Shown here: one piece after another, positions 29,742 to 52,251 of the stretch
How the letters are laid out: every line of letters starts with the position of its first letter
Numbering within the stretch: the first letter of the stretch is position 1
Assembly (NCBI GenBank): GCA_945903465.1
Contig: CAMDOF010000005.1
Location: 1 to 64,000 of the forward strand
DNA from: Opitutus sp. GAS368
GTDB taxonomy: Bacteria > Verrucomicrobiota > Verrucomicrobiia > Opitutales > Opitutaceae
Direction: 5' to 3'
Length of the DNA: 64,000 nt
Position numbers and translations under genes: made by a program
The notes under the pieces: model-generated
What the model was told of the DNA's origin: nothing
Database searches by the model: none
What the model saw: only the letters and a program-made list of their open reading frames with translations

Positions 29742-31205
29742 CTATGATCCGAACCGAAACGAGTAGACCTTGGTCCGCGCGCCGCTGAGCACGACTTGTA
29801 CGTGGCGGCCCTGGAGCGACGTAAGATCGCGACGGCCCTGCCACGAGGTTACCGCGCCGGTGGCGTTGAGTTGCAGCGGATCGCAGTCGGCGGCGGAGAA
29901 CCCTGCGAGATCGCGGCCGCTGACCGGATCGCGTAACGCCACGCGCAGCTCGCCGAGCGCACCGGTGTCGAGGTTGAGGCGCAGCGTCGATCCATTGACC
30001 ATGACCGGCGCCGTCGTGGCCTGGCCGCCGGCGGGGGAGAAATCCAGCGACACAAAACCGTCGACGCGTTGCACGTGGCGAAAAATCACGCCGTCTGATT
30101 CCTTCTGGCGCCCGATGGTGTCGCCGTGCGTCGTGCGGAAGCCGGTGCCGAACTGCCAGATTTCGTCGCCGCGGACCACCATGCCCGCACCGATGTAGAC
30201 CATGTTCCCGCTCTCCGAACCGGCGAGACCGGGGCGAAGGTAGGGCTCGCGTGAATACCGCTGCCACGCGACCCCGTCGCGGCTCGCGATGAACTGCGAC
30301 TCGGTGCGGCCGTCGTTGCGCACCCTCGATTTGTGGTCGTGGCGATAGATCGAGGGGAAACCGACATACCACTCGGGGGCGAGCGGGTAGCGCTGGATGG
30401 CGTTTGTATAGACATCGGTGAGATCGGGGTCGCGCTCGTCGCAGGCGAACACCGTCGGGGCCTCGTCCACGATGAACGGGTCGCGCGTCGGTTCATTTTT
30501 CTGCGCTCCCGCACCCGAGGGTTTGATCGGCAGAGGGCGGTCGAGGCGGTCGGTCTCCAGTCGGACCAACCTTCGCCAATGCTCCTTCGGATCCTCGCGA
30601 TGCCAGCTCCGGAAAAACAAGACGTAACGGCCGAGTTGATCGTCCCACAGCGTGACGTTTTGCGAGTCGGCCTCGAATGGCAGCAGCGGCGCGGAATCGC
30701 GCCGCCACAAAAGCCCATCGGGCGACGTGAAGCGATAAATGCCTCCGCCCTTGAAGACCGTCGTCACATAGACGTAGCGCTCGGCCTCGGTGCGCGCGTG
30801 TGGGTCGCGGAAGACATTGCCTTCGATGCTGGAGACGCCGACGAGATTGTTGGCTTTGCTGCCTGCGCGTTCGGCCACGCCGAGGTTCGGTTTTTCCCAA
30901 TGCACGCCGTCGGTCGACTCGGCGTAGGCCAGATGGACAATCTTCGTGGATTCACGCGTGTTATACCACATCCGCAGTTTCCCGCCGTCGTCGATCACGG
31001 AGAGATAAAACGTGATCATGAAACTTTCCCACGGACGGTCGCGGCGGATCACGATTTCGCTGCGCTGCGGCGGATTGACGGTGAGAGTGGTGCCGGCCGA
31101 CGCGGTGACGAACGCGGGATCGAGGAACAGGTGGCGCGTCTGAGCGGGGAGGACGCTGGCGAGCGTGAGAGTGAGTGCGGCGCCGATCGCCGTGAAGGTA
31201 TGCAT
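29742..31205 (-). CDS. Secreted beta-propeller glycosidase-like protein, paralogue 1
   Basis: Signal peptide, RHLFLDPAFV, RDRPWESFMITFYLSVIDDGGKLRMWYNTRESTKIVHLAYAESTDGVHWEKPNLGV, C-terminal module LRLNLDTGALGELRVAL...GRHVQVVLSGARTKVYSFRFGS. Confidence 0.85.
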   Translation of the reverse strand: MHTFTAIGAALTLTLASVLPAQTRHLFLDPAFVTASAGTTLTVNPPQRSEIVIRRDRPWESFMITFYLSVIDDGGKLRMWYNTRESTKIVHLAYAESTDGVHWEKPNLGVAERAGSKANNLVGVSSIEGNVFRDPHARTEAERYVYVTTVFKGGGIYRFTSPDGLLWRRDSAPLLPFEADSQNVTLWDDQLGRYVLFFRSWHREDPKEHWRRLVRLETDRLDRPLPIKPSGAGAQKNEPTRDPFIVDEAPTVFACDERDPDLTDVYTNAIQRYPLAPEWYVGFPSIYRHDHKSRVRNDGRTESQFIASRDGVAWQRYSREPYLRPGLAGSESGNMVYIGAGMVVRGDEIWQFGTGFRTTHGDTIGRQKESDGVIFRHVQRVDGFVSLDFSPAGGQATTAPVMVNGSTLRLNLDTGALGELRVALRDPVSGRDLAGFSAADCDPLQLNATGAVTSWQGRRDLTSLQGRHVQVVLSGARTKVYSFRFGS

Positions 31206-31302
31206 AGGAGGTGACGCTGGGCGGCCGGCGGCAGGCGTAATTTCACTCAGCAGGTGAAAGGTGATTCTTCGTGGGTATTCAGAGGCATGTGACCAAGTGA
31301 TG

Positions 31303-34284
31303 TTAGAACCGGCCGCGGACGCCGAAGTTCAGGAGCATGCCTTTCTCCGAGTAGGTCTGGAGGTGATGCGGCACGCCGTAGTAGAGACGTTGCGGTTGGT
31401 TGAGCAGGTTGTAGGCGTCGGCGTAGAACTCGACCGACGGGCGCAGCGCGTAGCTTACGCTGAGCGTCGTGTTGCGGAACGCTTTTTTGTAGAGGAGGCG
31501 GGTGGCGTTGGTGGAATAGGTGAACAGATATTCGCTGGTGTGGTTTACCAGGAGGTTGGTGCGGAAGCGTCCAAACGAATGGCGCACGCCGGCATTCCAC
31601 GAGGTCGGCACAAATTCGGCGAGTGAACTGACCGCCTGCCGGACGCCGGTGCCGTAGTCGCCGGCCGTGTTGAGCCGGGTGAAATTTCCGAAGACGCCGA
31701 AGGCGCGCACCCACTTGGGACCGAAGGCGAGTTGCTGCTGGAAATTCAGTTCGAGACCACGGACCCGCGCCTTGCCGCCGTTGAGCGACGTGTTGATCGT
31801 GTAACCGGGGTACTGGCCGTTGAAACCGTTGTCGTTGCCGGTGCCGATCACGCCGTTGGTGCTGCTGAAAATGAAATTCTCCAGATCCTTTTGAAACACG
31901 CCAACCGAGATGAGACCGGTTTGCTTCATGTAGTATTCGAGACTGAAGTCCCCGTTGTCGGCGGTCTGCGGCACGAGGCCGGGGTTGCTCATCGTGACGG
32001 TCCGCGCCGTGTCGTTGGCGGACTCAGTCGGGATCAGGTTGTTGAAATTGGGACGGGCGATGCCGGTCGAGTAACTCGCCCGCGCGAGGAGCCGCGGTTG
32101 AATCGCGTAGGTGAGATGCAGGCTCGGCATCGTATTGGAATAGGCGCTGTCGCGTTGACGGCTGCTGTATTCGGTCGCCGCGCGCAGCACGGGGTTGGTG
32201 ATGGTCGCGAGCGTGCGGGCGATGACCCACGCCTTGGCGTCCAGGGCGGTATGTTCGATCCGGGCGCCGCCCAACACGGTGAGCGGGCCGGCGCGCAGGT
32301 GGCCAAGGAGGTAGCCGGCGGCGATGTCTTCGGAAACGCGATTGGTGCCGGCGAATTTCTGGCTTTCGCGAAAATAGACATCCTCGACCCAGCGGGCGGG
32401 CTGGTCCTTGACGCTCTGGCCCGCCGACCCGATGTGGACGAAGGGCAGGTTGCCCAGGCCGAAGGCACTGCTGCGCACGAGCGAAGGATCGGCGAACGGC
32501 GTGAGGGTGTCGTCGGCGTTGCCCACGACGCCATCCGGCCCGGCGTAGGTGTAGCGCGTGTTGTTCCAGGTGGTGCTGATGGAGTCCTGCCGCCGGTAGG
32601 TGACTCCAGATTTCAAATACGTCGACGCCCGGGTGGGCAGTTCGTAACGGGCGTCGAGCTTGGCGGCGTATACGTGCGCGGCGCGGCGACCGCCGGTCTG
32701 GGTCAGAACGCTGGTCCGGTAGTTGTTGAGATCGTAGACGTTCGGGCCGCCGGTCTGGGTGAACTTGGGAAATTCAAGGGAGTGTGAGGAGTCGAGCACC
32801 CAGCCCACGCCGGCGATGGTGCTGGTGAGACTGCCGCCGGCCCGGTTTTTCGTGTCCTGGCCGCTGGTCTGATCGAGCACGCCGATGGCGAGGTTAAAGT
32901 CGGTGTTGATCTGCAGCCGGTCGCGCTTGTACTCGCCGACGAACTGGATGGTGCGCTGCCGTTGAAGCTGACCGATGCTGTTCGCCAGCATCTGGAATTG
33001 GGAGGCGGCGATCGCCCGCGCCTCGGTGCGCGTATCGGTGTAGTTGGGCAGAATCGCGCCCGTGCCGGTCGGAGCGCCGGCCGAGTCGAGGGTCGCCACG
33101 GTCTGGGCGGTAAGCGCGCGGGACTCGTTGTATTGATGGCCGCCGAACGCGGAGTAGTCGTTGACCGTACCGCGCAGGCTGAGGCGGGTGTATTCGTTCC
33201 ACTGAAAGTCGACGCGTCCGCTGATGGTCTCGAGGTGGCGGTTGAAGAAGTAGTCGGCCGCCTGGTAACTCCACATGTAGGCCGGGCTGGCGTTGGTGGA
33301 CTGGTAGTCGCGGATGGTGCGGACGTAATCGCCGACGCTTTCGAAATAGGTGGCGTTGAGGCTGACGCCGAGGTTCCGCTCACCGCCGAGGATGCTGAAG
33401 ACGCCCTGGTAACCGACCGCCAGATCTGGGTGAATGGGACGCTCGCGGCGCATTGGATTGTGCGGGGCGAAGGGGGGCGCCCAGCGTGCGCCGAAGCGGT
33501 AGTTGAATTCCTGTCCGCGCGTCGTGTTCAGCGGCGACTTTGTCTTCATGTTGAGCGTGCCCCCGATGGACGACGCGTCCATGTCGGGCGTGATGCCCTT
33601 CACGACCTCGAATTCCTCGAATTGCGCGGTGACGTTGGTCGTGAAGCGCACCTGGCGGGTGGCGTTGCTGGCGACCGGGGCGAGAATTCCGCCGTCCATG
33701 GTGACCGAGTTGAGGCTCGAGGCGATGCCGCGCACCGCGACCGCGCTCACCTCGTTATCCTCGGTGACGGTGGCGGTCACGCCCGGCAGCCGCATGAAGA
33801 CCTCGCCGGGATTCTGGTTGGCCAGGCTGCCGAACGCATCGGTGGCCGCGGCGGAAATGGCGTTGGCCGCGTTGCGCTGGCGGGTGATGGCGGCGGCGTG
33901 TCCGCTCGCCTCGGCCGTGACCTGAAAGGTCTCGAGGCGGAGAATTTCGGAGCGCAATTGAAAGTCCGCGCGCGCCGTGCCGCCCGCGGTGGCCCGAACC
34001 GTGAGGCTTTCGGAGTCGAGGCCGGTATACGTGACGACGAGGTTGAGTTCGCCGGCGGGCAGGTTGCCGAGATCGAAACGGCCGAACTCGTCGGTGGCGG
34101 CGGTGCGGGCGAGCGACGCAATTTCGATCGCGGCACCCTTGAGGAAGGAGCCGGTGACGGCATTGCGCACCGTGCCGGTAACCCGGGCGGAGTCATCGGC
34201 GGTAGCGGACCGGGCGAAGATTGTGCAGAAGGTGGCGAAGGCGATTAGGAGATGACGCGGCGAAACGATGAGGTGATTTGGCAT
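31303..34284 (-). CDS. TonB-dependent receptor with carboxypeptidase-regulatory-like domain
   Basis: 993 aa; VTGTVRNAVTGSFLKGAAIEIASLARTAATDEFGRFDLGNLPAGELNLVVTYTGL; plug PGEVFMRLPGVTATVTEDNEVSAVAVRGIASSLNSVTMDG; C-terminal LLNFGVRGRF. Confidence 0.95.
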   Translation of the reverse strand: MPNHLIVSPRHLLIAFATFCTIFARSATADDSARVTGTVRNAVTGSFLKGAAIEIASLARTAATDEFGRFDLGNLPAGELNLVVTYTGLDSESLTVRATAGGTARADFQLRSEILRLETFQVTAEASGHAAAITRQRNAANAISAAATDAFGSLANQNPGEVFMRLPGVTATVTEDNEVSAVAVRGIASSLNSVTMDGGILAPVASNATRQVRFTTNVTAQFEEFEVVKGITPDMDASSIGGTLNMKTKSPLNTTRGQEFNYRFGARWAPPFAPHNPMRRERPIHPDLAVGYQGVFSILGGERNLGVSLNATYFESVGDYVRTIRDYQSTNASPAYMWSYQAADYFFNRHLETISGRVDFQWNEYTRLSLRGTVNDYSAFGGHQYNESRALTAQTVATLDSAGAPTGTGAILPNYTDTRTEARAIAASQFQMLANSIGQLQRQRTIQFVGEYKRDRLQINTDFNLAIGVLDQTSGQDTKNRAGGSLTSTIAGVGWVLDSSHSLEFPKFTQTGGPNVYDLNNYRTSVLTQTGGRRAAHVYAAKLDARYELPTRASTYLKSGVTYRRQDSISTTWNNTRYTYAGPDGVVGNADDTLTPFADPSLVRSSAFGLGNLPFVHIGSAGQSVKDQPARWVEDVYFRESQKFAGTNRVSEDIAAGYLLGHLRAGPLTVLGGARIEHTALDAKAWVIARTLATITNPVLRAATEYSSRQRDSAYSNTMPSLHLTYAIQPRLLARASYSTGIARPNFNNLIPTESANDTARTVTMSNPGLVPQTADNGDFSLEYYMKQTGLISVGVFQKDLENFIFSSTNGVIGTGNDNGFNGQYPGYTINTSLNGGKARVRGLELNFQQQLAFGPKWVRAFGVFGNFTRLNTAGDYGTGVRQAVSSLAEFVPTSWNAGVRHSFGRFRTNLLVNHTSEYLFTYSTNATRLLYKKAFRNTTLSVSYALRPSVEFYADAYNLLNQPQRLYYGVPHHLQTYSEKGMLLNFGVRGRF

Positions 34285-34619: not shown

Positions 34620-36182
34620 GTGAACCCAAACCACTCCGACTGCTTCCGAACTCTTTTTCAACTGGTGCTGCTCCTTGCGGTGCCCTGCGGCGGCGCGCAG
34701 ACGAAGATTATCCTACCCGATCTTCCGTGCGGCGCGGTAGAGGGCGAGGCCGTTTTGTTCGCCTTTGATTCGACGGCGTTTCCCTTTCAGTCGCGCGTGC
34801 AAACCCGGCTCATCCCGGGCCGCTTTCACTCGGTGGTGCTGCCGCACGGGCCGCCCGGATCGCCCGACGAATTCCTGCGCTTCTATGGCACGGTCATTCG
34901 CGTCGAGGGCATTTTTCACATGTGGTATTTCGGCAACCACGGTCCCGAGCCGGCGACGATCGGCTACGGCCAGGGCAGCCACCCGGGAAAGGCGTTTTGC
35001 TATGCGCGCAGCACGGATGGCATTCATTGGGAAAAACCAAATTTGGGCTTGGTCGAATTCAACGGATCGAAGGCGAACAATCTGGTGCTGTTCCCCGAAC
35101 CCGCGCCGCGGCCGGCCGCCGCCGTGCTTTTCGATCCCGAGGATCCGAGACCGGAACGAAGGTTCAAGCTCGCCTACGAGGCGGACAACAAGGGCACCGC
35201 GCGACTCTGCGTGGCTTTCAGTCCCGACGGACTGCGGTGGACATTGTCGCCACTCAATCCGGTGGGCCCTTTTTTTGAGATGGCCGGCATCGCCAAAGTG
35301 AGGGGGAAATATTATATCAACGGTCAGGACGCGACCCGCGCGCACCAGGCTTTTGCCTCCCGCCAGCTGGCGACGTTTGTCTCCGCGGATTTTGAGCATT
35401 GGTCGCCGTGCGCGGCGGTCGGGCTGGATCGTTCCAGCGATCTCAACGGGCCTTCGATCGAACACGAATGGAACATCCGGGAGGAGGTTCACCTCGGCGC
35501 GGCGTTGTGGAATCGGGGCAGCGTTCTCCTGGGGATTTACGGCCAGTGGCATGGCAACCCGGTGGGCGATCGGCGATACACCTCAATTGATTTGGGGCTG
35601 ACCGTCACCCACGACGCGATCCATCACCGGGAGCCGATCCCGGGCTTCAAGCTCATCCCGGCTCGTGAACAGCCGGGGAGCCCCGCCGCGGACATGCCGG
35701 CGCTGATGCAGGGCCAGGGATTTGAGAACGTCGGGGACAAGACGTATTACTGGTATTCGCTGTGGAAGGGAAACGAAGGGACGGGCGTGAGGCTGGTGAC
35801 GTGGGATCGCGATCGGCTCGGGATGCTCAAGCCGATCTATCCGTCAGGGGTGAGTGGGAATCCAACGGCTGTCAACTATTGCCAGGCGGTGAGCTGTGCG
35901 GTGAAGGTGTCGGCCGGCGGCAAGGCGAAAATGTTCGTGAACGCGTCCGGTCTGGGCGCTCACTCCCGTTTGCGGATCGCGCTGCTCGATGCCGCGTTTC
36001 AGCCGATTCCGGGTTACCACGCAATCATCGCCGCGGACGGGTTGCGGTCGCCGGTGAATTGGGAAAACCGCGAACTGTTCGGGGCGAGCCTGGGCGAATG
36101 CTATGTGCAGGTCGGGTTTGAAGGCGTGCGACCGGAGGACGCGAATTTCCACGCGCTCTACCTTGAACCGGTGGCGCCGTAA
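34620..36182 (+). CDS. Secreted beta-propeller glycosidase-like protein, paralogue 2 (divergent, opposite strand)
   Basis: Likely GTG start (VNPNHSDCFRTLFQLVLLLAVPCGGAQ). IFHMWYFGNHG...KAFCYARSTDGIHWEKPNLGLVEFNGSKANNLVLFP; EPIPGFKLIPAREQPGSPAADMPALMQGQGFENVGDKTYYWYSLWKG. Confidence 0.8.
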   Translation: MNPNHSDCFRTLFQLVLLLAVPCGGAQTKIILPDLPCGAVEGEAVLFAFDSTAFPFQSRVQTRLIPGRFHSVVLPHGPPGSPDEFLRFYGTVIRVEGIFHMWYFGNHGPEPATIGYGQGSHPGKAFCYARSTDGIHWEKPNLGLVEFNGSKANNLVLFPEPAPRPAAAVLFDPEDPRPERRFKLAYEADNKGTARLCVAFSPDGLRWTLSPLNPVGPFFEMAGIAKVRGKYYINGQDATRAHQAFASRQLATFVSADFEHWSPCAAVGLDRSSDLNGPSIEHEWNIREEVHLGAALWNRGSVLLGIYGQWHGNPVGDRRYTSIDLGLTVTHDAIHHREPIPGFKLIPAREQPGSPAADMPALMQGQGFENVGDKTYYWYSLWKGNEGTGVRLVTWDRDRLGMLKPIYPSGVSGNPTAVNYCQAVSCAVKVSAGGKAKMFVNASGLGAHSRLRIALLDAAFQPIPGYHAIIAADGLRSPVNWENRELFGASLGECYVQVGFEGVRPEDANFHALYLEPVAP

Positions 36183-36236
36183 GTTCGGGCGACGCTGGGT
36201 TACCCGGTTCGCATTGCTTGTTACGCTGCGAGGAGC

Positions 36237-36392
36237 CCCAAGGGAAGCTCCAGAGCGCATCTCAGTTTCTGGCCGTTACCCGGTGCGACGGGGCGCGGAC
36301 GTGGCGCCGCCGGCGTTCGTCCGCACGTTGCAGACGAGCCTTCGCCTACGTCTACACTCCGCTTTGCAATACCCGGGTGACGCGTCCTTCAG
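36237..36392. repeat. Dispersed ~155-bp repeat, copy B (inverted)
   Basis: Reverse complement gtattgcaaagcggagtgtagacgtaggcgaaggctcgtctgcaacgtgcggacgaacgccgg...agaaactgagatgcgct...ccttgggg aligns with 29493-29631. Confidence 0.85.
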
Positions 36393-37728
36393 GCCACGGT
36401 TCGATTTTCGAGTTCCCTGCCATTCGACGGGTCGAGGAGCGCCACCCGCAACTCGCCGAGCGCGCCGGTGTCGAGATTCAGGCGCAGTGTCGATCCGTTG
36501 ACGACGACCGGCGCCGTGGGGGCCCGGCCACCGGCAGAGGAGAAATCGAGCGACACAAAACCGTCGACGCGTTGCACGTGACGGAAAATAGTGCCGTCGC
36601 CCCGTTGCTCGCGGCCGGGGACATCGCCATGGGTGGTACGGTAGCCGGTGCCGTATTGCCAGATCTCATCACCCCGCACCACGAGGCCGGCCGCGATGCA
36701 GAGCATGCTGCCGCTCTCCGAACCGGCGAGGCCCGGCTTCAGGTACGGCTCGCGGTTGTAGCGCTCCCACTTCTTCCCGTCGCGGCAGCCGACGAACTGG
36801 ATCTCGGTCCAGCCGTCGCTGTGGTTGTGCGGCGAGTTGAGCAGATGGCGGAAGAAGGCCGGAAAGCCGACATACCAGCTCGGATCGAGTGGATAGGGCT
36901 GGATGGCATTCGTATAAATGTCCGTGTCCGGCGGATCCTGTTGATCGCAGACCAGAGCGTCGGGCAATTCGTCAAACACGAACGGATCGCGAGTCGTGTC
37001 TGTTGGCCGCGACTGGTCGCGTGGGCGCGAAGGAACGATCCCGCTGGAATGGTCGAGGCGCTCGGCTCGAAGCGGACAACTTTGCGGTTCGCACCAACGG
37101 GCTGTTTCGCCAGGTTCCAGCCGCGGAGGTAGGCGACGTATTTGCCGAGGCGCGAGTCCCAGAACGTGATTTTCTGCGAGTCGGCCTCGAACGGCAACAG
37201 CGGTGCTTTGTCGCGCTTCCACGTGTAGCCTTCGGGGGAGGTGAAGCGGAAGATGCCGCCACCCTTCCCGACGGAGCTGACATACACGTATCGCTCCTGT
37301 GGATTCGCCGCATGCTCGTCGCGGAAAACCGTGCCTTCGAGATTGCGGACGCCGAGGAGGTTGTGGGCGCGGCTGCCGTGATAATCGACCACGCCGAGAT
37401 CGGGCTTCACCCAGTTCACCCCGTCAGCCGACTCTGCGTAGGCGAGGCTGCCCTTCTTTTCCTTGTCCCGATAGACATACCACATCCGGATCTTCCCGCC
37501 GTCATCGATCACGGAAAGGTAGAAAGTGATCATGAATTGTTCCCATGGCTTGTCCGCGCGAATGACGATCTCGGAGGATTTGGGCGGGTTGACCACGAGC
37601 GCCGCACACTGCGCCTCGCGCACGAACTCGTGATCGAGGAACCGGTGGCGCGTCGGGCCCGCCGCGGGCGCGCCCGCCAACGAACCGGCGAATGCAAGCC
37701 AGCCCAAGGCGATGAGCAGTGGTTTCAT
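36389..37728 (-). pseudogene. Frameshifted, C-terminally truncated beta-propeller glycosidase-like protein, paralogue 3
   Basis: Start MKPLLIALGWLAFAGSLAGAPAAGPTRHRFLDHEFV in the frame of ORF 36739-37938; continues as TRDPFVFDELPDALVCDQQDPPDTDIYTNAIQPYPLDPSWYVGFPAFF in ORF 36389-37222. Frameshift between ~36985 and ~37090. Ends at DPSNGRELENRTVA, lacking the last ~50 aa of its paralogues. Confidence 0.8.
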
Positions 37729-37759
37729 CGAGGGGATCGTAAATTCGATGGCTCGTTGT

Positions 37760-39202
37760 TTAATTTTCGAACCGGAAGGAGAAGAGCTTGGTGCGATGGG
37801 AACGAAATTCGATCGCCACGTCCCGGCCCTGCAAGGCGGACAAGTCAGCGCCACTTGCCCAAGTGACCACCGCACCGGTGGCGTTGATCTCAAGCCGTCG
37901 ACAGTCTTCCACGCCGAACCCAGGCAGCGGTCTTCCATCGACGCCGATCAGTCCCACCTGCATTCCTCCGAGCGCGCCCGTGTCGAGGTTGATCAGAAGC
38001 CGCCGACTGGAAACCTTCACCGGAACGGTCCGAGCCGAACCGACCACGTTGCCGGTGTCCAGCGATACGAACCCGTCCACCCGTTGGACGAAACGGTAGA
38101 TCGCTCCGTCGGTCTGCTGGGCGCGGCCGGGCTTGTCGCCGTGCGTCGTGCGGTAACGGGTGCCGTACTGCCAGACCTCGTCGCCCCGCACGACCAGGCC
38201 CGTCCCCATGAAGATCATGTTGCCGCTCTGTGGCCCCGGCAGTCCAGGGCCGGCGTAGACCTCGCGACCGTAACGGTGCCAGGTGAGCCCGTCCCGACTG
38301 CCGACGAACTGCACCTCCGTCCGGCCGTCGTTAAAGTGCGGCGAGTTGCCGTTGAAGTGCCGGTAAAAGGCCGGAAACCCGACATACCAATGTGGATCGA
38401 GTGGATACGGCTGGATCGAGTTGGTGTACACGTCGGTATCCGACGGATCCTGCTCGTCGCATTTGAGCATCACCGGTAGCTCATCCATCCTCACTCCCGG
38501 CTGCCGTTTGGCGTCACTCCCAAGTTGGCCGGCGAGGCTGTCCGTCTCCAGCAACACGACCTTCCGGCGCAGGGTGTGCTCGTGCGGGCCTTTGGGATCC
38601 TTGCCGCGCGTGTACACCCGGTATTTCCCGCGCCGTTCGTCCCAGAAGGGCACCGTCTGGGTGTCCGGCTGGAACCGAACGAGCGGCCCGGCCTGCCGCT
38701 TCCAGCGCAGACCTTCGGGCGAGGTGAAGCGAAACACCCCGCCGCTCCCCGTGGAGAGATAGACGTATTGCTCGTCTCCCGCGCCTCGGGGATCGCGATA
38801 AACCGCACCTTCCAGCGAATGAAGGCCGACGAGATTGTTCGCCGTGCTGCCCTCGTACGCAACGACTCCCAGCTCCGGCTTGTTCCAGTTCAGTCCGTCA
38901 CCGGATTCCGCATACGCCACGTTCGCCCGGTTCTGGGTGTCGCGGCAGATGTACCACATCCGCAGCCGTCCGCCCTCATCTCGCACGGTCGTGTAGAACG
39001 AGATCATGAGCTGCTCCCACGGCCGGTCGGACACCATCACGCGGTCTTCGCGGAGGGGCGGATTCACCCGCAGCGTTGTTCCCTGCGCCTCACTCACGAA
39101 GGCGGGATCGAGGAACAGGTGGCGGTTTGGGCCCGCGTCAGGCGCGCCCGGCAGCGAACCGGTGAACGCCAGCAAGCCCAGGGCGATGAACGGGGGTTTC
39201 AT
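37760..39202 (-). CDS. Secreted beta-propeller glycosidase-like protein, paralogue 4
   Basis: MKPPFIALGLLAFTGSLPGAPDAGPNRHLFLDPAFV; LRMWYICRDTQNRANVAYAESGDGLNWNKPELGVV; LLINLDTGALGGMQVGLIGVDGRPLPGFGVEDCRRLEINATGAVVTW...TKLFSFRFEN. Confidence 0.87.
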   Translation of the reverse strand: MKPPFIALGLLAFTGSLPGAPDAGPNRHLFLDPAFVSEAQGTTLRVNPPLREDRVMVSDRPWEQLMISFYTTVRDEGGRLRMWYICRDTQNRANVAYAESGDGLNWNKPELGVVAYEGSTANNLVGLHSLEGAVYRDPRGAGDEQYVYLSTGSGGVFRFTSPEGLRWKRQAGPLVRFQPDTQTVPFWDERRGKYRVYTRGKDPKGPHEHTLRRKVVLLETDSLAGQLGSDAKRQPGVRMDELPVMLKCDEQDPSDTDVYTNSIQPYPLDPHWYVGFPAFYRHFNGNSPHFNDGRTEVQFVGSRDGLTWHRYGREVYAGPGLPGPQSGNMIFMGTGLVVRGDEVWQYGTRYRTTHGDKPGRAQQTDGAIYRFVQRVDGFVSLDTGNVVGSARTVPVKVSSRRLLINLDTGALGGMQVGLIGVDGRPLPGFGVEDCRRLEINATGAVVTWASGADLSALQGRDVAIEFRSHRTKLFSFRFEN

Positions 39203-39346
39203 CTGCGTAGATTTTGCCGACGTGCCCGCCGATTGAGGCACGAAAAATCCGTGACAGGTGGCTGCGAGCGTGAGCGAGTGGACTCCGCCCGCTCACGCTC
39301 GCCGCCACGAAGAGTTGAGACGTGGCGAAATAACTGTGCCGCAACA

Positions 39347-41551: not shown

Positions 41552-41560
41552 GACGTCGGT

Positions 41561-44500
41561 TTAAAACGTGCCCTTGATGCCGGCCGACATCTTCACGCCG
41601 CGTTCGGCGTAGAGCCGCTGGTAGCTGTAGGAGGGCGTGAGCGGACTGAGCCGATCCTCGCCAGCGCGCGCGTTGGTGAGGTTGCGGGCGTTGAAGAAGA
41701 CTGAAAACCGACGGTTGATCCGGAACTCGGCGTTCATGTCCAACGTGAGCCACGACTTCACCCGGATCACGCCCCCGGGTCCGATGGAGGTGAGTGGAGT
41801 TTCGAGCTCTCCCTGGTAGTTCCACCGGAACCCGAAACCGACGCGGCCGCGCGAGTACGAGATTCCCCAATTGGCCGACTTGGTGGGAAGATTCACGAAA
41901 CCAGGGCCTTCCACGTCGAGCTTCGTCAGGTTGCCGAACGCGGAGAGGCCCCTCGCCCAGGCGGGCAGGAAGGTCAGCCGCTGCTGCCAGTTCAGCTCGA
42001 TGCCGTTGATCCGCGTGGTCTCGCCGACGTTGAAGGTGCTCACAAAATCCCACCCCTCGTAGGTCGGGGCGAGCCCAAGCTCGGCCAGCAGGCCCGGGGT
42101 CAGCTGAACCGTCTTGTTGGCGAACGCGTCGGCCACGTTCTTGTGGAAGAACGCCGCCGAGACGACGCCGCCTGAACTGAAGTAATACTCCGCGGACGCC
42201 TCGTAACTGTCCGCGGTCCACGGCTTCAGGCTCGTATTGCGGCCCCGAACGATGCCCCGCGAGCTGTCCTGGTCGTCCTCGTCGACGTCGATATTGGGGA
42301 TGATGTTGATGAAGTTGGGCCGGCCGATCGTCCTGGCGTAGCTGAGTCGGAGCAGGAGGTCCGTCCGGAGGTTGTAGGTGGCATTGATGCTCGGATAGGT
42401 GCCGTCGTATGTCTGCGCCGCCGCGGAGCCGCGCGGCTTGTACTGCAGCTTCGCCTGCTCGAGCGCGTTGGTCGTGATCAGGACCGGCGTGCCGTTGGGG
42501 TTGCGCAGGATATTCCCCGCGGCGTTGCGCTGGTAGATGGCGTCACGATTGATCAGCAGCCCCCGTCCGTCGTTTGCCGTCTTCTCGAAACGGACCCCGC
42601 CCAGAAGCGAGAGGCGGTTCTTGAAGAGCTTCAGCTCGCCCTGCAGGTAGGCCGCCGTGATCGTCTGGCGGATCCTTTCGGAGTTGGTCGCCCGGCTGAT
42701 GAAGGCCGCGGGTTCGCCGAGCACGAACTGATTCGGATTGGTCTTGTAGAGGGTGTAGAGTGCCCGCGCATCCACCCACTGGATGTCCGTCGGCGTATTG
42801 AAGCCCTGTTCGAGCCCCAGGTTGAGCCGATCGACAAAGGGCGCGGCGGTGTTGTCGGCATTCTGGGCCACGCCGTCCGCGCCGACGAATGTCCACGACG
42901 GCTGCCACCGCTCCTTCTCGATTGTGCGCCGGTTGAGCGCACTGCCGATCTGCACGGCGCCGGAGTTGGTGCCGAGCCGGAACTCGCGCCGGAGGTTCAG
43001 CTGGCCTTGGGCAATCTCGTCAAACCCCTCTCGTTCGTCGGACGTGGCGGTCAGGATTTGATAGTTGGCCAGGTTCTTCCAGTCCACGGGCGCACCCTGG
43101 ACGTTCCGCACGTCGACGATCCGGGGCATGTCCGTCCCGTTGAGACCCTCGAAACGCACGGTCGGTGTCAACAGGCGCGTCGTCACGTTGAAGAAAAAGC
43201 CTTCTTCCATGGGGTGGTAGAAATTGTCGGACTTGCCCAGTGACGCCGCCCCGTCGATCTGCCAGTCCCCGGATCGGTACTTGGCGGAAAACGAACCGTG
43301 GTCCGTGGCGCCCTTCTTGGGCGTCCACGCCTGGGCGTGCGCGACCGATCCGGCGCCCGCGCGTCCCTGCGTGAAGTCCGGCCCGGACGACACCGGCAGG
43401 TTGCCGGTGTTGAAGGTGAGCCGGTTGCCCGCCGTCGCGATCAAGTCGTAGGATCCGCGCCGGTAACCGGCCTTCAGCGTCAGGGCGGAATACGGGCGCC
43501 AGTCGATGCCCGCCGAATACGATTCGCGCACCGTCTCGCGGGAATCGCCCGTGGTGCGAATCGATCGGAAGTACGGCGCGGCCTCCGATCCACCCTGGGC
43601 CGGCGCGAACTCCCACGTCGCGATCGGGCCCTGCACCCGCCCAAACTGGTTGGAGCGCATGGCACCCAGGTTGAAGCCGAAATTCTTTGTCACCGGGTTG
43701 ACGTAGGAGAGGTCAAAGCCCGGACGCAGCTTGCGGGTGCTCAAGCCGGCCGGACCCGGGGTCTTGTCCAGGGAATGATCGGCATCCGTAAACTGCACGG
43801 TGCCGCGGACCGTGAGCTGGGGCTTGCTGCGCTCAAAGGAGCTCTTGCTGATCAGGTTGATCGATCCTCCCAGAAAGTCCGCCGACATGCTGGGAATGGG
43901 GGACTTGATGACTTCCACGCGGGACACATCGCTCATGGAGATTTGTTCCGTGTTGGCGCCACGGGCCCCGCCCGTCGCAGAGAACGAAGCGCTGGGCATC
44001 TGCGCTCCGTCCACCGCGATCGTGGTGGATTCCGGATCGAAGCCGCGCACCGAGATGGTGACCGCATCTCCCCCGGTGGGATAGATTACAGAGACGCCGG
44101 GCAGGCGCTTGATGAACTCGGACACGTTGCCCTCGCTCACGTCGCCAAAGGCATCGGCGGCGATCACGTTTTTGATGTTGGGGGCGTAGCGCTGCTCGGC
44201 GTTGGCCAGGATGTCGGCATCCATTTCCCTCGTCGCCGCCACGGTGAACTGGGCCAGCGTCACGGTCGCATCTTCCATGCCGTAGCGGCTCCGGCTGGTC
44301 AGCTCGAAGTTCTGCTGCACGGTCCGGCCGGCCGCGATCTCGACCACGCGTTCCTGTTCGTCGAGTCCGGGATGGACCACGCGCAGGGTGACGCTGCCCG
44401 CGGCCAGGCCGGACAGCCGGTAGGCGCCCGTCTGATCCGTCAGGGCCACGTGTTCCGTCCCCTTGACGCTCACCCGGGCGTTCAGCACATAATCACCTGT

Positions 44501-44665
44501 CACCGGGTTGAGGATACGCCCTTCGACCACCCCCGTGGCGGCGGCACCGGACGGTTGCGCGGGGGCGTTCAGATAAAACAGGACGACGGCGAGGACGGCC
44601 GGGATCAGACGGCACAACCCGCGTTTGGATCGGAAGCAGCGCAGGGCACGAGCAGGAGCCTTCAT
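41561..44665 (-). CDS. TonB-dependent receptor with carboxypeptidase-regulatory-like domain
   Basis: 1034 aa; VVEGRILNPVTGDYVLNARVSVKGTEHVALTDQTGAYRLSGLAAG; EFIKRLPGVSVIYPTGGDAVTISVRGFDPESTTIAVDG; C-terminal VKMSAGIKGTF. Confidence 0.95.
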   Translation of the reverse strand: MKAPARALRCFRSKRGLCRLIPAVLAVVLFYLNAPAQPSGAAATGVVEGRILNPVTGDYVLNARVSVKGTEHVALTDQTGAYRLSGLAAGSVTLRVVHPGLDEQERVVEIAAGRTVQQNFELTSRSRYGMEDATVTLAQFTVAATREMDADILANAEQRYAPNIKNVIAADAFGDVSEGNVSEFIKRLPGVSVIYPTGGDAVTISVRGFDPESTTIAVDGAQMPSASFSATGGARGANTEQISMSDVSRVEVIKSPIPSMSADFLGGSINLISKSSFERSKPQLTVRGTVQFTDADHSLDKTPGPAGLSTRKLRPGFDLSYVNPVTKNFGFNLGAMRSNQFGRVQGPIATWEFAPAQGGSEAAPYFRSIRTTGDSRETVRESYSAGIDWRPYSALTLKAGYRRGSYDLIATAGNRLTFNTGNLPVSSGPDFTQGRAGAGSVAHAQAWTPKKGATDHGSFSAKYRSGDWQIDGAASLGKSDNFYHPMEEGFFFNVTTRLLTPTVRFEGLNGTDMPRIVDVRNVQGAPVDWKNLANYQILTATSDEREGFDEIAQGQLNLRREFRLGTNSGAVQIGSALNRRTIEKERWQPSWTFVGADGVAQNADNTAAPFVDRLNLGLEQGFNTPTDIQWVDARALYTLYKTNPNQFVLGEPAAFISRATNSERIRQTITAAYLQGELKLFKNRLSLLGGVRFEKTANDGRGLLINRDAIYQRNAAGNILRNPNGTPVLITTNALEQAKLQYKPRGSAAAQTYDGTYPSINATYNLRTDLLLRLSYARTIGRPNFINIIPNIDVDEDDQDSSRGIVRGRNTSLKPWTADSYEASAEYYFSSGGVVSAAFFHKNVADAFANKTVQLTPGLLAELGLAPTYEGWDFVSTFNVGETTRINGIELNWQQRLTFLPAWARGLSAFGNLTKLDVEGPGFVNLPTKSANWGISYSRGRVGFGFRWNYQGELETPLTSIGPGGVIRVKSWLTLDMNAEFRINRRFSVFFNARNLTNARAGEDRLSPLTPSYSYQRLYAERGVKMSAGIKGTF

Positions 44666-45083
44666 GGGATTATCGTTTGAGCAGGGACCAGAGCGGGAAG
44701 AGGGAGCGGCACGGGGATGCTCCGAACCACGCGGAAAAGTCGCCGGGGAAACGCACGCGGGGTGAAATGAAAATCGATGGGAAGGGTGGCATGAGGGGAA
44801 CCGTGCCCGGACGGTGAAAACACCCTACAGCACCGCCGGCTTTCGCTTCGCGCAAAGTTCATTTTGTGGTCTGCGGATCAGACCACCCCAAGGCTGGCCT
44901 CGTGGTGGGCCTTCGGGCGCCTGGAGGTCGCGATCGATTCCGTGGATCATGGATCAAGACAACCGCCGGCACGCTTTGAGCAGTTTCACCGAAACTCTGA
45001 TACAATCGGCGTGGCAAAGTCGCTGCGCCTGGAAGCATACTGCGCTCCGTGGCTCGCAACCCGGCCATCTCACCGCCCTGCCC

Positions 45084-47873
45084 ATGAAACCTCCATCCCT
45101 CCTCCGTTCCCCGATGCTTCCGGGCCTCACCTTCATTGGGACTCTTTCTTTACTCACGGTCTCGCCTCTCGTCGCCCAGACGGTCGCACCCGCCGCCTCC
45201 GGCGATCGCGTCAAGGAAACCGTGGAACTGAGCCCGTTCATCGTGCTCGGAGACACCAATGACGGCTACGAAGCCAAGAACACCGCGGGCGTCACCGGCA
45301 CCAACCGCTCGATCCGTTCACTGCCGATCAGCATGGATGTCGCCACGTCGACCTTCCTCAGCGAGATCAATGCCCGCAACCTGATCGATGCCATCGAGCT
45401 GATGCCTAACGTCGCGATGACGAACACCGAGGCGACCCAGGGCGGGTCGAGTGATCAGAACAGCTTCCGCCTGCGCGGCATGACCAGCAAGGAGGAGCGC
45501 CGCCGTAATGGCGTGATGTCACTGGCCATCCCCGATCCGTTTTCCACCGATCGCGTCGAGTTCCTGCGCGGCGCCCAAGCCCTGCTTTACGGCCAGGGCA
45601 TCGCGTCCGGCGCGATCAACGTGGTGACGAAGCGCGCGCTGTTCGGCTCCAACCGCCGCGAGGTCACACTGACGGGAGATTCGGACGAATCCTACCGGGC
45701 AACGCTCGACCTCAATCTCTCCCGCTCGAATCTGGCCCTCCGGGTGGCCGCCGTGCAGGCCGACAAGCATTTCTGGCAAGACAACCTCTCGGACAAGACC
45801 CGCGGCATCTATGCCGACCTCGCGTACCGCCTCAGCCGCAACCTCGTGGCGCGCGTGAACCACGAGCAAACCACGGGCAAGTCCGCCCTCCGGGGCGGCG
45901 CCATGACCATCCGGGACAACAGCCTCGCCGACCGGCGCAACAACGCGGTTTTGGATCGGCTGCTCTACGAAAACGGCGACGTCTCCGGCATCAGCATCGG
46001 GGGTTCAACGCCCAGCTACGAAAACTACCGGTCGCCCGCGAGCATCACAGTCGGACGCGAATCGGAGTCCAAGGTGACCAACCTCGCGCTCGAGGGCACC
46101 TTCGGATCAAATCTGTCCGCGCGGGTCGCGTATTCCCACGAGAGAATGTTCTACTTCAACAAGAGCAATGGCGCCACGGACCTGCTCGCGCCGGGCGACA
46201 ACCGCGCGGTCGACCGGCAGTGGAGCTTCCGGGTGGACCCGACGCGCAGCGACATCCGCTGGTACATCGAAACGCTGCAGGGGACCGTCCGGCATCAGGG
46301 GACCGTCGGCAACTTTCTGAAGAGCGAACTCGTGGCGGGCACCGAATACCGCTTCAAACGGCAGACGATCGATCGGCAGCGGCTGTATGCGATCGACGCC
46401 AGCGGCCGGTTCCTCCCGGGCGCCGACGCCCTCGGGATGCGGCAGATGCAGCCTTTCGTGATCCCGGTTTCCACCGGTTACGCGCCGCCCCAGTACTCGT
46501 ATCCCGGGTACGCCTGGGCCACGACCCACGCGTACGGCGTGGTCGCGCCGACGCCGGTGAATCCTCGCGGCCTCGGCGGCGTCGGCAGCCCGATCAACCG
46601 GCCGGAAGAACAGTTGGGCGCCTATGCCAGTTGGCTGGGCAACTGGTTCGGTGGCCGGATCGAAACCATGGCCGGCGCCCGCGTCGACCACATCAAGCTC
46701 CGGGACCAGGTGTTCGGTTGGACCGACTTCGATTCCAGCGTCAAATCGGGCCTGGTCGGCGCGGTCTACAACCTGCGCGAAAACCTCGGCATTTATGCCA
46801 ACGTCGGTCGCGCCTTCTCCGCCATCCCCTCCTCCCGACTCCAGGTTTTCGACTATTCGCTCTGGCCGATTGCCAAGGGCAAGTCCATGGAGGCCGGGTT
46901 GAAGTTCGACCTGTGGAAGAACCGCATTTCCGGTTCGGTGACGTATTTCGACAACCAGAACCAAGGCGAGGTCGTGACCGTGTCGGGAGCGCAACTCGAC
47001 CTCTTCAACCCCACGGGCATCAACGGCCGCAGCAACAGCAGTGCCACCGCCGCCACGATGAACGTCGGCTCCAAGGGGGTGGAGGTCGCCGTGACCCTGC
47101 GCCCGACCACGAATTGGCGAATCATGCTCAGTGCCGGAATCAACGACGCCCGCACGATCGACGCCGCGCGGGCAGCCATGCTGTACAATGACCAGTTCAA
47201 TACCGACGGAACAACGGTGTTGGTCAAAAGCGCGAACGGTTCCACGACGCCGTTGCTGGTTCCCTCCGTCCGCACCGATGCCAACAGCCCGAGAATTCCG
47301 CTCACCCTCGCGATGATGCGGGATCGATCCAGCCCCTATTTCGCCCAAATCGATCCCGCCGGCGGTCGCATCACCAACGCGAACAATCTATTTCTGAATA
47401 CGGCGGGCGTCCCCACCGGTGATGAGGGGCTTCCGATTTCGGCGCACCAGCTCGGATTCCAAGCCCCCAACGGCGGCATCGCCGAGGTCGTCGCGCCCGG
47501 CGACTACCTGACGCCGATCGCCGGCAAATCGCTCCTCCTGAACACGACCTACACATTCGGGTCGGGACGGCTTGAAGGGTTTTCTGTTGGCGGACTCATC
47601 TCCTGGCAGGGGGACAGGCGCGCCGGCTACACGACGATCGGTGGTGTCCGCCAGTTGTATGATGCGCCCGACTTGATCCGGACTGATCTGCGGCTCGGCT
47701 ACCAGTGGAAACTGGGAAGCGGACGCCATCTGTCAGTGCGGCTGACGGTCAGCAACCTTCTCGACCAAATGAAGATCCGGCCAGCGCTCAATGTCGCGAA
47801 TGGCACGGTGACGAGCGTGACGACCGACCTGGCGCCCCGCACCTGGGTCCTGTCCAGCACCCTGCGCTTCTGA
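45084..47873 (+). CDS. TonB-dependent receptor
   Basis: Start MKPPSLLRSPMLPGLTFIGTLSLLTVSPLVAQ; VELSPFIVLGDTNDGYEAKNTAGVTGTNRSIRSLPISMDVATSTFLSEINARNLIDAIELMPNV; VEFLRGAQALLYGQGIASGAINVVTKRA; C-terminal TWVLSSTLRF. Confidence 0.93.
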   Translation: MKPPSLLRSPMLPGLTFIGTLSLLTVSPLVAQTVAPAASGDRVKETVELSPFIVLGDTNDGYEAKNTAGVTGTNRSIRSLPISMDVATSTFLSEINARNLIDAIELMPNVAMTNTEATQGGSSDQNSFRLRGMTSKEERRRNGVMSLAIPDPFSTDRVEFLRGAQALLYGQGIASGAINVVTKRALFGSNRREVTLTGDSDESYRATLDLNLSRSNLALRVAAVQADKHFWQDNLSDKTRGIYADLAYRLSRNLVARVNHEQTTGKSALRGGAMTIRDNSLADRRNNAVLDRLLYENGDVSGISIGGSTPSYENYRSPASITVGRESESKVTNLALEGTFGSNLSARVAYSHERMFYFNKSNGATDLLAPGDNRAVDRQWSFRVDPTRSDIRWYIETLQGTVRHQGTVGNFLKSELVAGTEYRFKRQTIDRQRLYAIDASGRFLPGADALGMRQMQPFVIPVSTGYAPPQYSYPGYAWATTHAYGVVAPTPVNPRGLGGVGSPINRPEEQLGAYASWLGNWFGGRIETMAGARVDHIKLRDQVFGWTDFDSSVKSGLVGAVYNLRENLGIYANVGRAFSAIPSSRLQVFDYSLWPIAKGKSMEAGLKFDLWKNRISGSVTYFDNQNQGEVVTVSGAQLDLFNPTGINGRSNSSATAATMNVGSKGVEVAVTLRPTTNWRIMLSAGINDARTIDAARAAMLYNDQFNTDGTTVLVKSANGSTTPLLVPSVRTDANSPRIPLTLAMMRDRSSPYFAQIDPAGGRITNANNLFLNTAGVPTGDEGLPISAHQLGFQAPNGGIAEVVAPGDYLTPIAGKSLLLNTTYTFGSGRLEGFSVGGLISWQGDRRAGYTTIGGVRQLYDAPDLIRTDLRLGYQWKLGSGRHLSVRLTVSNLLDQMKIRPALNVANGTVTSVTTDLAPRTWVLSSTLRF

Positions 47874-47885
47874 GGCGCGACGATG

Positions 47886-48011: not shown

Positions 48012-48038
48012 AATTTATTTTGCTGAGGCGCCCGCTTA

Positions 48039-48989: not shown

Positions 48990-49026
48990 GGTCAGATGCC
49001 GGCCGGACCGCGGGGAGCAGCCGTAT

Positions 49027-49105
49027 TCACGGCGATCCTTTTCTGCGGTGCGCGGGCCGGACCAGACCGGCCCGCTCCAGCAGCAGGATGCAGGGATTCA
49101 TTCAT
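49027..49105 (-). pseudogene. Vestige of a TIM-barrel epimerase gene: start and end joined, middle deleted
   Basis: atgaatgaatccctgcatcctg (MNESLHP) next to ctgctggagcgggccggtctggtccggcccgcg (LLERAGLVRPA..stop). Compare MNESLLPGAAP start and LMDRAGLVRPARLGKVTG* end of the gene at 53488-54480. Confidence 0.7.
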
Positions 49106-49139
49106 GAAGGGAGATGGGGCTGTTCCGATCGGGGTAGGC

Positions 49140-50576
49140 TTAGCCACGCAGCGCGTCGATCTCCCAGCCCTTGCGGTACTGGCGTCGCACGAGGGCGGTT
49201 GCGGCCGGGTCGTCGAAACGCAGTCGCGCGTCGTCCCACACCAGCCGTCGCCCGGGAACACGTTGCGCGATCGTCCCGAGCATGACGATCTCCGTCAGCG
49301 GGCCTGCGACTTCGAACGATGAGGTGGCCGACCGGCCGGCGACGATGGCGTTCGGCCATTCGCGGTAATGATCAAGTTTGTCGGCGGCCAGGTCCGCAAA
49401 CATCTGTTTCAGCGGCCCGACGGTGTAGTCGCGGTATTTCGCCTCCGGATACAGGCGGGGCGGTGTGCCCGGCGCGGCGTGCATGATGCCCTTGTCACCG
49501 ATGAAGAGGGAACCGCTGCTGGGAATTTTGAATCCCTCCGGCAGCTTGCTCTTGTCCACCGGCTGTTCCTTTTTCAGGCCGTCCGACCACGTGTAGCGGA
49601 AGCCCTCGTGCGTGTAGCGGGTCGCCGGAAACTCGTAGACGACGGTGCTCGCGTCCGGATATACGAGCTCGTCCACGTTGCTGACCTCGGCGCGGAGCGC
49701 AGTCGGCGCCCCGAGTTCGAGCGCCCACACGACCACGTCCATGATGTGGCAGCCCATGTCGCCCATCGAGCCGGTACCGTATTCCTTCCAGGCCCGCCAA
49801 TTGAAGTTGTGGTAGAGATGCGTCTTGTAGGGTCGCGGGGCACCGGCGCCGATCCACTCGTGCCAATGGATGTCCTTTGGCACCGGATCCTCGCCGACCG
49901 CCAGCTCCTTGATGCCCGGAAGCCAGACCGGCTTTGTGCCGAGGAACGAGTACGCCTCGCGGACTTTTCCGATGACACCGTTCCGGATTACCTGGACGGC
50001 GCAGCGATAGCCCGTGCTGGAGTGATACTGGTTGCCCATGTGCGTGACGACGCCTTTCGCCCGGGCGAACTCGCGCATGACGCGGGCCTCATGCACGGTC
50101 TGGGTCATGGGCTTTTGCACGAACACGTGCTTCCCCATCGCCATGGCCGTGAGCGCGACCGTGGCGTGCATGTGGTCGGGAATGGAAACGGTGACCGCGT
50201 CGATGTCCTTCTGCTCAAGCATCCGGCGAAAATCCGTGTAGAGCTTCGCCTTGGGGAACATCCGGGCCGCGGCACCGATACCGAGGGAGCGCGCGAGCTG
50301 CCCCGGAGCAAGGTTTGGCGGTTGCGAACCGCCGTCGCGGTGATCGATATCGCAGAGGGCGACGATGTCGTGGTATGCCCCCTCGCCACTCACGCCGCGC
50401 AGGTCGTCCCAGCCTTTGCCGGCGGCACCGATGCACGCGATCCGGACCCGGCGGACGGACGGGTTGGCACGCGCCCGCCCCGGCAACGCGCCGAGCAGAC
50501 CGAGCGACACACCGCCGGCGGCGACGGACTTCGCGAATTTCCGGCGCGTCATTGGGATTGGTCTGGGTGTATTCAT
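49140..50576 (-). CDS. Tat-signal Gfo/Idh/MocA family oxidoreductase, copy 1
   Basis: MTRRKFAKSVAAGGVSLGLLGALPGRARA; VTVSIPDHMHATVALTAMAMGKHVFVQKPMTQTVHEARVM; GVVTHMGNQYHSSTGYRCAVQVIRNGVIGKVREAYSFLGTKPVW. Confidence 0.93.
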   Translation of the reverse strand: MNTPRPIPMTRRKFAKSVAAGGVSLGLLGALPGRARANPSVRRVRIACIGAAGKGWDDLRGVSGEGAYHDIVALCDIDHRDGGSQPPNLAPGQLARSLGIGAAARMFPKAKLYTDFRRMLEQKDIDAVTVSIPDHMHATVALTAMAMGKHVFVQKPMTQTVHEARVMREFARAKGVVTHMGNQYHSSTGYRCAVQVIRNGVIGKVREAYSFLGTKPVWLPGIKELAVGEDPVPKDIHWHEWIGAGAPRPYKTHLYHNFNWRAWKEYGTGSMGDMGCHIMDVVVWALELGAPTALRAEVSNVDELVYPDASTVVYEFPATRYTHEGFRYTWSDGLKKEQPVDKSKLPEGFKIPSSGSLFIGDKGIMHAAPGTPPRLYPEAKYRDYTVGPLKQMFADLAADKLDHYREWPNAIVAGRSATSSFEVAGPLTEIVMLGTIAQRVPGRRLVWDDARLRFDDPAATALVRRQYRKGWEIDALRG

Positions 50577-50751
50577 AATATTGTTCCGGTTCGTCTCTGG
50601 CGCTGATTCATGGTCATATTCACTCCGGATGCTGCAACTTGGAGCATCCTGGGGCGGTCTGAGCTTCCAATTGCTGGTCCATAGGGTGGACCAACGAGGT
50701 GGGTGCTCTCAAGGTGGGCTGAGCGTCACTCAAGCTCGTCGGCCAGCGCCG

Positions 50752-52251
50752 TCATTCGAAGCGGAACGAATAAAGCTTCGTCCGCCGCATCCGGATTTCG
50801 AGGCAGACGCTCCGCCCCTTCAGCGTCGCCAGGTTGCCCTGCGGCCAGGCGACAAGCGCGCCGATCGTGTTTTTCTGCAGCGGCGGACAATCTTCGACGG
50901 AGAACCCGGGGAGAGCCCGGCCGGCTTCATCGAGCAGGCCGATGCGAATCTCGCCCAACGCCCCGGTATCGACATTGAGCAGCAGCCGGTCGCCGGTCAC
51001 CCGCACCGGGACAGTGCGGGCGGTGCCCTCGACGTTCGCCGCGGTCAGCGAGACGAAACCATCCACGCGCTGCACGAAACGAACGATGACGCCGTCCTGT
51101 TTCAGTTCCCGCGCCGGCTCGTCGCCGTGCTGGCTTTCGAACTCGTTCGCATACTGCCAAATCTCGTCGCCCTTCACCACCATCCCGCTCGTCATATAGA
51201 TCATCCTCCGATCCTCGGGCGACGCCACCATCGGACTGGCGTAGGGCATACGGTCGTAACGATGCCAGTGAATGCCGTTACGACTGCCGGCAAATTCCGT
51301 CCCCACCGGCCCGTGCTTCTGGCCCTGGTAGTTCGCCGTGGGGGAACCATCCTTGCGGCGGAAGAACGCCGGAAACGCGACGTACCACGAAGGATCCAAA
51401 GGGTACGGCTGCGCCACCATGGTGTAGACATCGGTGCGGGACGGATCCCGCCCATCGCACTCAAAGACGGTGGGCACCTCGTCCAAGGCGTATCGCAGCG
51501 AATCGGGCTTCCCCGACCCCCGGCCGCGACCGCTCGGCTCGATTCCCGTCGGCTCCTTAAGACTGCTCACCTCGAGCCGTTTGACAGTGCGGTACTGCGG
51601 CGACCAGCCGCGAAAATAGAGCACGTACTTGCCAATCCGCTGATCCCAGAACGCGACGTTCTGGGTATCGGAGGGAAACTTCAGGAAACCGGGCTCATCC
51701 GCCTGCCAGCGAAGCCCGTCCGGCGAGGTGAACCGGCCCACACCGCCGTAGGGAAAATTGAGGTTCGAGACCGCGACATAACGTTCCGCCGGCGATGCAG
51801 CGTTGGGATCGATGAACGGCGTAAACCCGGCGCTTCCTCCTTTCAACAGGTTGGTCTCCTTGCTGCCCTCGTACTCCACGAGCCCAAGCGAGGGCTTGGT
51901 GAAATGGATGCCGTCCCGCGATTCGGCGTAAGCGAGCCCGGCGGAAGGCCGCCCCTGCTTCGCGCGCGCGTGATACCAGAGCCGCACCCGATCACCCTCT
52001 TGCAGGACCGAGGAATAAAAACCGAGCATCAGGCTCTCCCAAGGACGATCCGGTCGGAGCACGACCTCGTGCCGCTGCGCGGGGTTGATCGTGATCTGGA
52101 GATCTTGGAGCGACGACAGCAGGGCCGGCTCAAGAAACAAATAACGCCTGGCCGCGAACGTCGCCGTCGCCGCTGGCACGGTGACCGTTAACAACAAGGC
52201 GGCAACGCCCAGGGTGGAACGAGCGAGGGTTTGAAGCAGGGCGGGGCTCAT
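50752..52251 (-). CDS. Secreted beta-propeller glycosidase-like protein, paralogue 6
   Basis: RPDRPWESLMLGFYSSVLQEGDRVRLWYHARAKQGRPSAGLAYAESRDGIHFTKPSLGLVEYEGSKETNL; C-terminal LLLNVDTGALGEIRIGLLDEAGRALPGFSVEDCPPLQKNTIGALVAW...TKLYSFRFE. Confidence 0.87.
   Translation of the reverse strand: MSPALLQTLARSTLGVAALLLTVTVPAATATFAARRYLFLEPALLSSLQDLQITINPAQRHEVVLRPDRPWESLMLGFYSSVLQEGDRVRLWYHARAKQGRPSAGLAYAESRDGIHFTKPSLGLVEYEGSKETNLLKGGSAGFTPFIDPNAASPAERYVAVSNLNFPYGGVGRFTSPDGLRWQADEPGFLKFPSDTQNVAFWDQRIGKYVLYFRGWSPQYRTVKRLEVSSLKEPTGIEPSGRGRGSGKPDSLRYALDEVPTVFECDGRDPSRTDVYTMVAQPYPLDPSWYVAFPAFFRRKDGSPTANYQGQKHGPVGTEFAGSRNGIHWHRYDRMPYASPMVASPEDRRMIYMTSGMVVKGDEIWQYANEFESQHGDEPARELKQDGVIVRFVQRVDGFVSLTAANVEGTARTVPVRVTGDRLLLNVDTGALGEIRIGLLDEAGRALPGFSVEDCPPLQKNTIGALVAWPQGNLATLKGRSVCLEIRMRRTKLYSFRFE

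Follow-up and report, generated by a model that had tools for sequence, protein, structure and literature searches.

Genes interleaved with TonB receptors in an Opitutus genome belong to a multi-phylum family of predicted five-bladed propellers, putative exported glycosidases

On one contig of Opitutus sp. GAS368, six genes for propeller-like proteins lie among genes for TonB-dependent receptors, raising the question of whether they form a local set of paralogues and what their products do. The stretch analysed, here called the window, comprises bases 1-64000 (64,000 nucleotides) of contig C5 (112,555 bp), from a genome that totals 8.16 Mb over 343 contigs. A sequence-only reading of the window had proposed a local expansion of six secreted, glycosidase-like beta-propellers sharing two motifs and lacking a SusD partner. 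The six genes are named A to F in order of position (Table 1).

Table 1. Family members and neighbouring features in the window.
Feature	Coordinates	Strand	Description
GntR / Peripla_BP_3 regulator	28278..29411	+	Adjoins A; Pfam; type recurs near close relatives
Member A	29742..31205	-	487 aa; hydrophobic N-terminus, predicted five-bladed propeller, C-terminal beta-sandwich module 29745-30038
TonB-dependent receptor	31303..34284	-	Heads unit ending in A, ~100 bp gap; NCBIfam TIGR01782, 348 bits vs cut-off 310
Member B	34620..36182	+	~520 aa when started at 34620, ORF open from 34434; belongs to a divergent subfamily; C-module 35922-36164
Member C, pseudogene	36389..37722	-	Reading-frame pieces 36742-37722 and 36389-37222 with a frameshift between; ~45 last codons absent
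Member D	37760..39205	-	~480 aa; propeller and C-module 37763-38053; part of run TonB-E-D-C
Member E	39347..41551	-	734 aa, divergent: extra N-terminal C-module copy (41039-41308), linker region, propeller, C-module 39356-39619
TonB-dependent receptor	41561..44665	-	Heads unit TonB-E-D-C, ~10 bp before E; TIGR01782, 350 bits
TonB-receptor-like outer-membrane protein	44814..47873	+	Divergent from 41561-44665; 96% identical in sister MAG; served as TonB search seed
GFO/IDH/MocA oxidoreductase	49140..50576	-	Adjoins F; Pfam
Member F	50752..52251	-	499 aa, modelled member; propeller ~residues 36-404, C-module 405-499 (50755-51039)
Xylose-isomerase-like TIM barrel (53488-54711) and second GFO/IDH/MocA oxidoreductase (54539-56221)	53488..56221	-	Pfam
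BNR_2 sialidase-like propeller	56820..58598	-	Pfam; separate family, recurs beside members at other loci
PF12831 FAD-dependent oxidoreductase	61772..63793	+	One of four on C5; family recurs beside close relatives

Six genes fitting that description are present, and the homology of A, C, D and F was confirmed at 40-64% identity: A, D and F are 47-52% identical pairwise over ~470-490 residues, and both pieces of C show 40-64% identity to these three. With F alone as the query against its own genome, we recovered A (E 1e-138), D (6e-136) and the two pieces of C (2.5e-60 and 1.8e-51), as well as the distant B (7.5e-11) and E (1.4e-4). Scores from iterated HMMs are circular for B and E, and the membership of these two rests on the F-only search together with a C-module profile built without either of them, which matched B once (1.1e-7) and E twice (2.5e-13 and 1.1e-11). 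B and E are thus real but much more distant members. The proposal that all six share the propeller motif (WYxxR / DGxxWxKPxLG) needs correction for E, in which this motif is missing and the sequence reads HVWGSSR...RAETRDGLNYENL. C is frameshifted, in line with its earlier designation as a pseudogene, and is truncated as well. Its orthologue in a sister MAG (L054:5331-6803), with 72% identity across the first 300 residues, is unbroken and adjoins the D and E orthologues (81% and 88%, respectively). All six window members have hydrophobic N-terminal stretches, at which no lipobox was seen on reading by eye, and the proteins are most likely secreted or periplasmic.

Pfam and NCBIfam place these proteins in no named family. 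The six window members matched nothing in Pfam up to E 1, their NCBIfam matches were all sub-threshold, and single-protein searches of Pfam, NCBIfam and the PDB sequences gave nothing useful. The strongest Pfam glycosidase matches in the 51 relatives scanned were Glyco_hydro_32N (6e-4) and Beta-prop_BT_1020 (0.0014). PF00251 (GH32) was matched weakly by 5 of the 51 (best 6e-4) and by no window member up to E 1; PF24067 (GH143) was matched weakly by three to four other members (best 0.0014, below the cut-off) and by none in the window. Up to E 1, PF04041 (GH130) was found in none of the 26 and 51 members scanned, nor was it found in the own genome, and GH43 models were absent from the Pfam matches of the window members, the 26 members and the 51 relatives. 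The family is thus uncharacterised, as had been suggested, with no Pfam or NCBIfam glycosidase family above the cut-off and no solved member.

Family profiles searched against the PDB sequences found GH130-like and GH32 proteins, among them 4onz (1.3e-8) and the GH130 protein 7fip (3.4e-7 in one search, 3.5e-9 in the other). The AlphaFold model of F, made from 51 sequences (mean pLDDT 88.9, pTM 0.86), answers the question of blade number that the sequence-only reading had left to such a model: a five-bladed propeller is predicted. Foldseek matched this model in the PDB to GH32 7vco (1.1e-9), GH137 BT_0996 (2e-9), GH43 3c7g (6e-9) and GH130 9fj8 (2.4e-7, with the highest target-normalised TM, 0.61). 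All of the best matches are five-bladed glycosidases or phosphorylases; the query TM of the model to known structures is low (~0.4). Three kinds of evidence concur in supporting members as five-bladed propellers, a predicted rather than a solved fold, and the earlier recognition of a glycosidase-like propeller agrees both with the match of the model to GH32/43/130/137 structures and with the weak GH130 and GH32 matches of the profiles.

With GH130 (9fj8, 7fip, 4udk) the family has in common the predicted five-bladed propeller, the blade-1 pattern W-E ... Y/N ... SxDGixW and a DP motif opening blade 2, whereas its members are ~100-180 residues longer, carry a C-terminal beta-sandwich, are probably exported and lack a PF04041 match. 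GH32 and GH43 (clans GH-J and GH-F) are also five-bladed and exported and gave the lowest Foldseek E-values, and in GH32 a beta-sandwich likewise follows the propeller. Set against this likeness, Pfam matches are sub-threshold and confined to few members, the family alignments did not show the GH32 motifs WMNDPNG and EC, and the xDP that is present has an ambiguous register. A third comparison is with BT_0996 (GH137) and the N-terminal propeller of BT_1020 (GH143, PF24067), both rhamnogalacturonan-II enzymes; the Foldseek match and the weak PF24067 matches point to them, while whole-sequence similarity stays under the cut-offs.

The C-terminal 95 residues of F (405-499) model as a separate beta-sandwich, with a pLDDT of 96.4 for the module alone, and a search of this model against the PDB returned nothing below E 0.03. 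Matches to CBM6-like and other jelly-roll domains were weak and were not accepted as an assignment. The module follows the family: its 41 matches in the own genome are located in or beside family genes, and E carries a further copy ahead of its propeller.

The family alignments point to a set of candidate active-site residues (F numbering). R221 is invariant in 51/51 and 36/36 alignment rows, and D113, S111, S176, D178, W182, N134, Y276, D269 and D148 are conserved, D148 in only 75-83% of rows; D195 also counts among the conserved acids. An hhalign comparison of the family with GH130 (probability 96%) keeps register over all blades and places D148-P149 opposite the GH130 DPR motif; the same comparison with GH32 gives two blade registers with nearly equal scores. 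In a PDB profile match to the Thermotoga maritima invertase, D195 falls opposite MNDPNG, on the GH32 nucleophile. E has Asn at D148 and His at D195, and B lacks D195, so that these two, judged by sequence, may work by another mechanism or have no activity. The incomplete conservation of D148, the disagreement between the GH130 and GH32 registers and the loss of some candidate residues from B and E argue against an enzymatic role. Several acidic residues are conserved, some of them are missing in B and E, and the members may be catalytic or may bind glycan only.

The idea of a local expansion was not upheld. The family occurs throughout the own genome. Full-length members number at least 36, a minimum since F was the starting query, and fragments come on top; two further close members lie on C5 past the window (C5:71371 and C5:93459). 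A profile search found it in 103 of the 289 Verrucomicrobiota genomes sampled. A contig scan with the narrower alignment A3, chosen because the broad A2 varied too much, gave matches also in Planctomycetota, Lentisphaerota, Acidobacteriota, Armatimonadota, Hydrogenedentota and Gemmatimonadota; members also occur in single MAGs under the labels Myxococcales, Actinomycetota and Anaerolineales, although such labels may be mistaken. A maximum-likelihood tree, obtained by a short search with SH-aLRT support, puts A with a protein of an Opitutus MAG. D and F each pair with one protein of the sister MAG, and B falls with proteins of another Opitutaceae MAG in a separate deep subfamily; E forms a long branch of uncertain placement. 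Since most window members cluster with genes of other genomes, we rejected a recent local burst of paralogues and regard the set as old. Four members of the B-type subfamily stand in tandem in an Opitutaceae MAG (L096:944-7240), and the cultured relative Geminisphaera colitermitum TAV2 has a member as well (L059). A member annotated as 'hypothetical protein' is also found on a plasmid of Isosphaeraceae bacterium EP7 (CP151669.1:31367-32800; L151:5935-7368), adjoining an IS4 transposase.

The own genome links the family to TonB receptors. Of the 43 family genes (fragments included), 15 have a receptor gene as their immediate upstream neighbour on the same strand, and 22 lie in runs headed by a receptor; the window holds two such units, TonB(31303)-A and TonB(41561)-E-D-C. 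Both counts are lower bounds, as the phmmer seeds may miss receptors, for example the 1148-aa gene before L041:4718. The binomial p for 15 of 36 is ~1.5e-9 at a TonB background of 6.3%, a generous estimate rather than a measured value (427 loose candidates divided by some 6800 genes, itself an estimate), and serves as a guide only, the genes not being fully independent. At least 150 TonB plug domains are encoded in this genome (427 candidates at first look). Around the named relatives, the TonB-upstream arrangement was seen for only 3 of 54 family genes, and two of these three (L056, L062) are closely related to A; that the link is found mainly in the own genome argues against a model of enzymes paired with TonB receptors.

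The lack of a SusD partner is real but uninformative, as SusD (PF07980) is absent genome-wide, with a positive Bacteroides control; the missing SusD was accordingly rejected as a special feature of this locus. Such absence is expected outside Bacteroidota. The window units differ from SusCD pairs in having no SusD-family lipoprotein beside the receptor, and TonB-dependent carbohydrate loci are known in Verrucomicrobia (PMC5615132).

Other neighbours recur as well. Beside the relatives we repeatedly found TonB receptors, BNR_2 proteins, sulfatases, PF12831 FAD-dependent oxidoreductases, GFO/IDH/MocA proteins, GntR/periplasmic-binding regulators and sugar-acid enzymes. The remaining PF12831 genes of the contig are at C5:72935, C5:74919 and C5:97785, and ~22 strong ones occur genome-wide. 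Next to FAD oxidoreductases lies a gene for an HpcH/HpaI-type aldolase (L031:12820-13833, that is C5:76820-77833); this aldolase and the PdxA and SBD_N genes that neighbour other members hint at sugar-acid catabolism. The contig also carries a ~50-nt repeat with the core GACGAGCCTNCGCCTACGTCT, at 29514-29534 (-) and 36333-36353 (+) of the window and at C5:93274-93294 (+). Allowing up to 2 mismatches, only five sites exist in all 8.16 Mb, and the three on C5 are each within ~200 bp of a family gene; the repeat is possibly a small mobile or REP-like element.

We favour, with moderate confidence, a model in which the members are exported glycoside hydrolases of a family outside Pfam and NCBIfam, probably exo-acting, many of them working beside a TonB receptor of their own. 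The GH32/43/130-type propeller would have its active site in the central funnel and cut glycosidic bonds there, probably as an exo-enzyme on oligosaccharides, while the C-terminal beta-sandwich would pack onto the propeller or bind glycan. The TonB receptor would import the oligosaccharide into the periplasm or capture it at the surface, and once trimmed by the propeller it could be oxidised and catabolised by the neighbouring oxidoreductases, sulfatases and aldolases. The many diverged paralogues would then correspond to many different glycan linkages.

The main rival, which we consider unlikely, is that the propellers are non-catalytic and bind glycan in aid of the adjacent TonB receptor, a SusD-like role in bacteria that lack SusD. 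The close-set TonB-propeller gene pairs, the missing SusD and the incomplete conservation of the candidate catalytic acids would all suit such a role. It fits less well with the lack of a visible lipobox, with the nearest Foldseek folds being nearly all enzymes, and with the frequency of the family in loci that have no TonB neighbour, including those of Planctomycetota, Acidobacteriota and Armatimonadota.

Less probable still is that the members belong with Lac161_ORF10 (AGW45555) and cleave beta-galactosides. That protein is a five-bladed beta-galactosidase of ~570 aa from a Verrucomicrobia soil cosmid, with a KDP motif at residues 196-198, weak DUF377/GH130 kinship and top homologues mainly in Bacteroides (PMC5342196). 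Compared by description only, it resembles the family in predicted fold class, phylum and length, in its weak DUF377/GH130 kinship and in the position of its xDP motif, roughly that of D148. The family scan, however, had no Bacteroides matches, and a family member occurred in 0 of 30 loci around PF14100, the Lac161 operon partner. As for GH130-type phosphorylases or mannosidases diverged past recognition, GH130 does give the best match by profile and by target TM, yet we think this very improbable given the lack of PF04041 matches up to E 1 in the members scanned and in the own genome, the little phosphate donor available to an exported protein and the different accessory domain.

Returning to the glycoside hydrolase model, related proteins may already have been described. 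Eighteen unclassified beta-propeller putative glycosidases were reported in the planctomycete Paludisphaera borealis, with a FURAN31 family (PMC5352709). By description they are alike in being unclassified glycosidase-like propellers of a related phylum, and the Isosphaeraceae plasmid carries a family member; the 18 propellers are possibly of the same family. PMC5352709 ties the P. borealis / FURAN31 propellers to AGW45552, which in PMC5342196 is a different protein, Lac161_ORF7, and the link of the propellers so tied to our family is uncertain. The family may overlap with the five-bladed proteins of both papers.

The genes of the window are best called part of a large, unassigned branch of five-bladed glycosidase-like propellers with their own C-terminal module, and not a local oddity. 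More tentatively, and at less than even confidence, they could represent pan-phylum exported enzymes, diversified inside single genomes into dozens of glycosidases, each specific for a linkage and coupled to its own TonB receptor, the receptor-plus-enzyme uptake units of SusD-less Verrucomicrobiota. Many comparable families without assignment exist; here the number of paralogues, the breadth of the family and the TonB pairing make a good target, and, thanks to the TonB-receptor gene pairs, the substrate of every receptor-enzyme unit is open to direct test. At least 36 genes of the own genome are 'hypothetical' to Pfam and NCBIfam, and if their products are enzymes, automated annotation overlooks a carbohydrate-active family that is among the larger ones in Verrucomicrobiota and related phyla.
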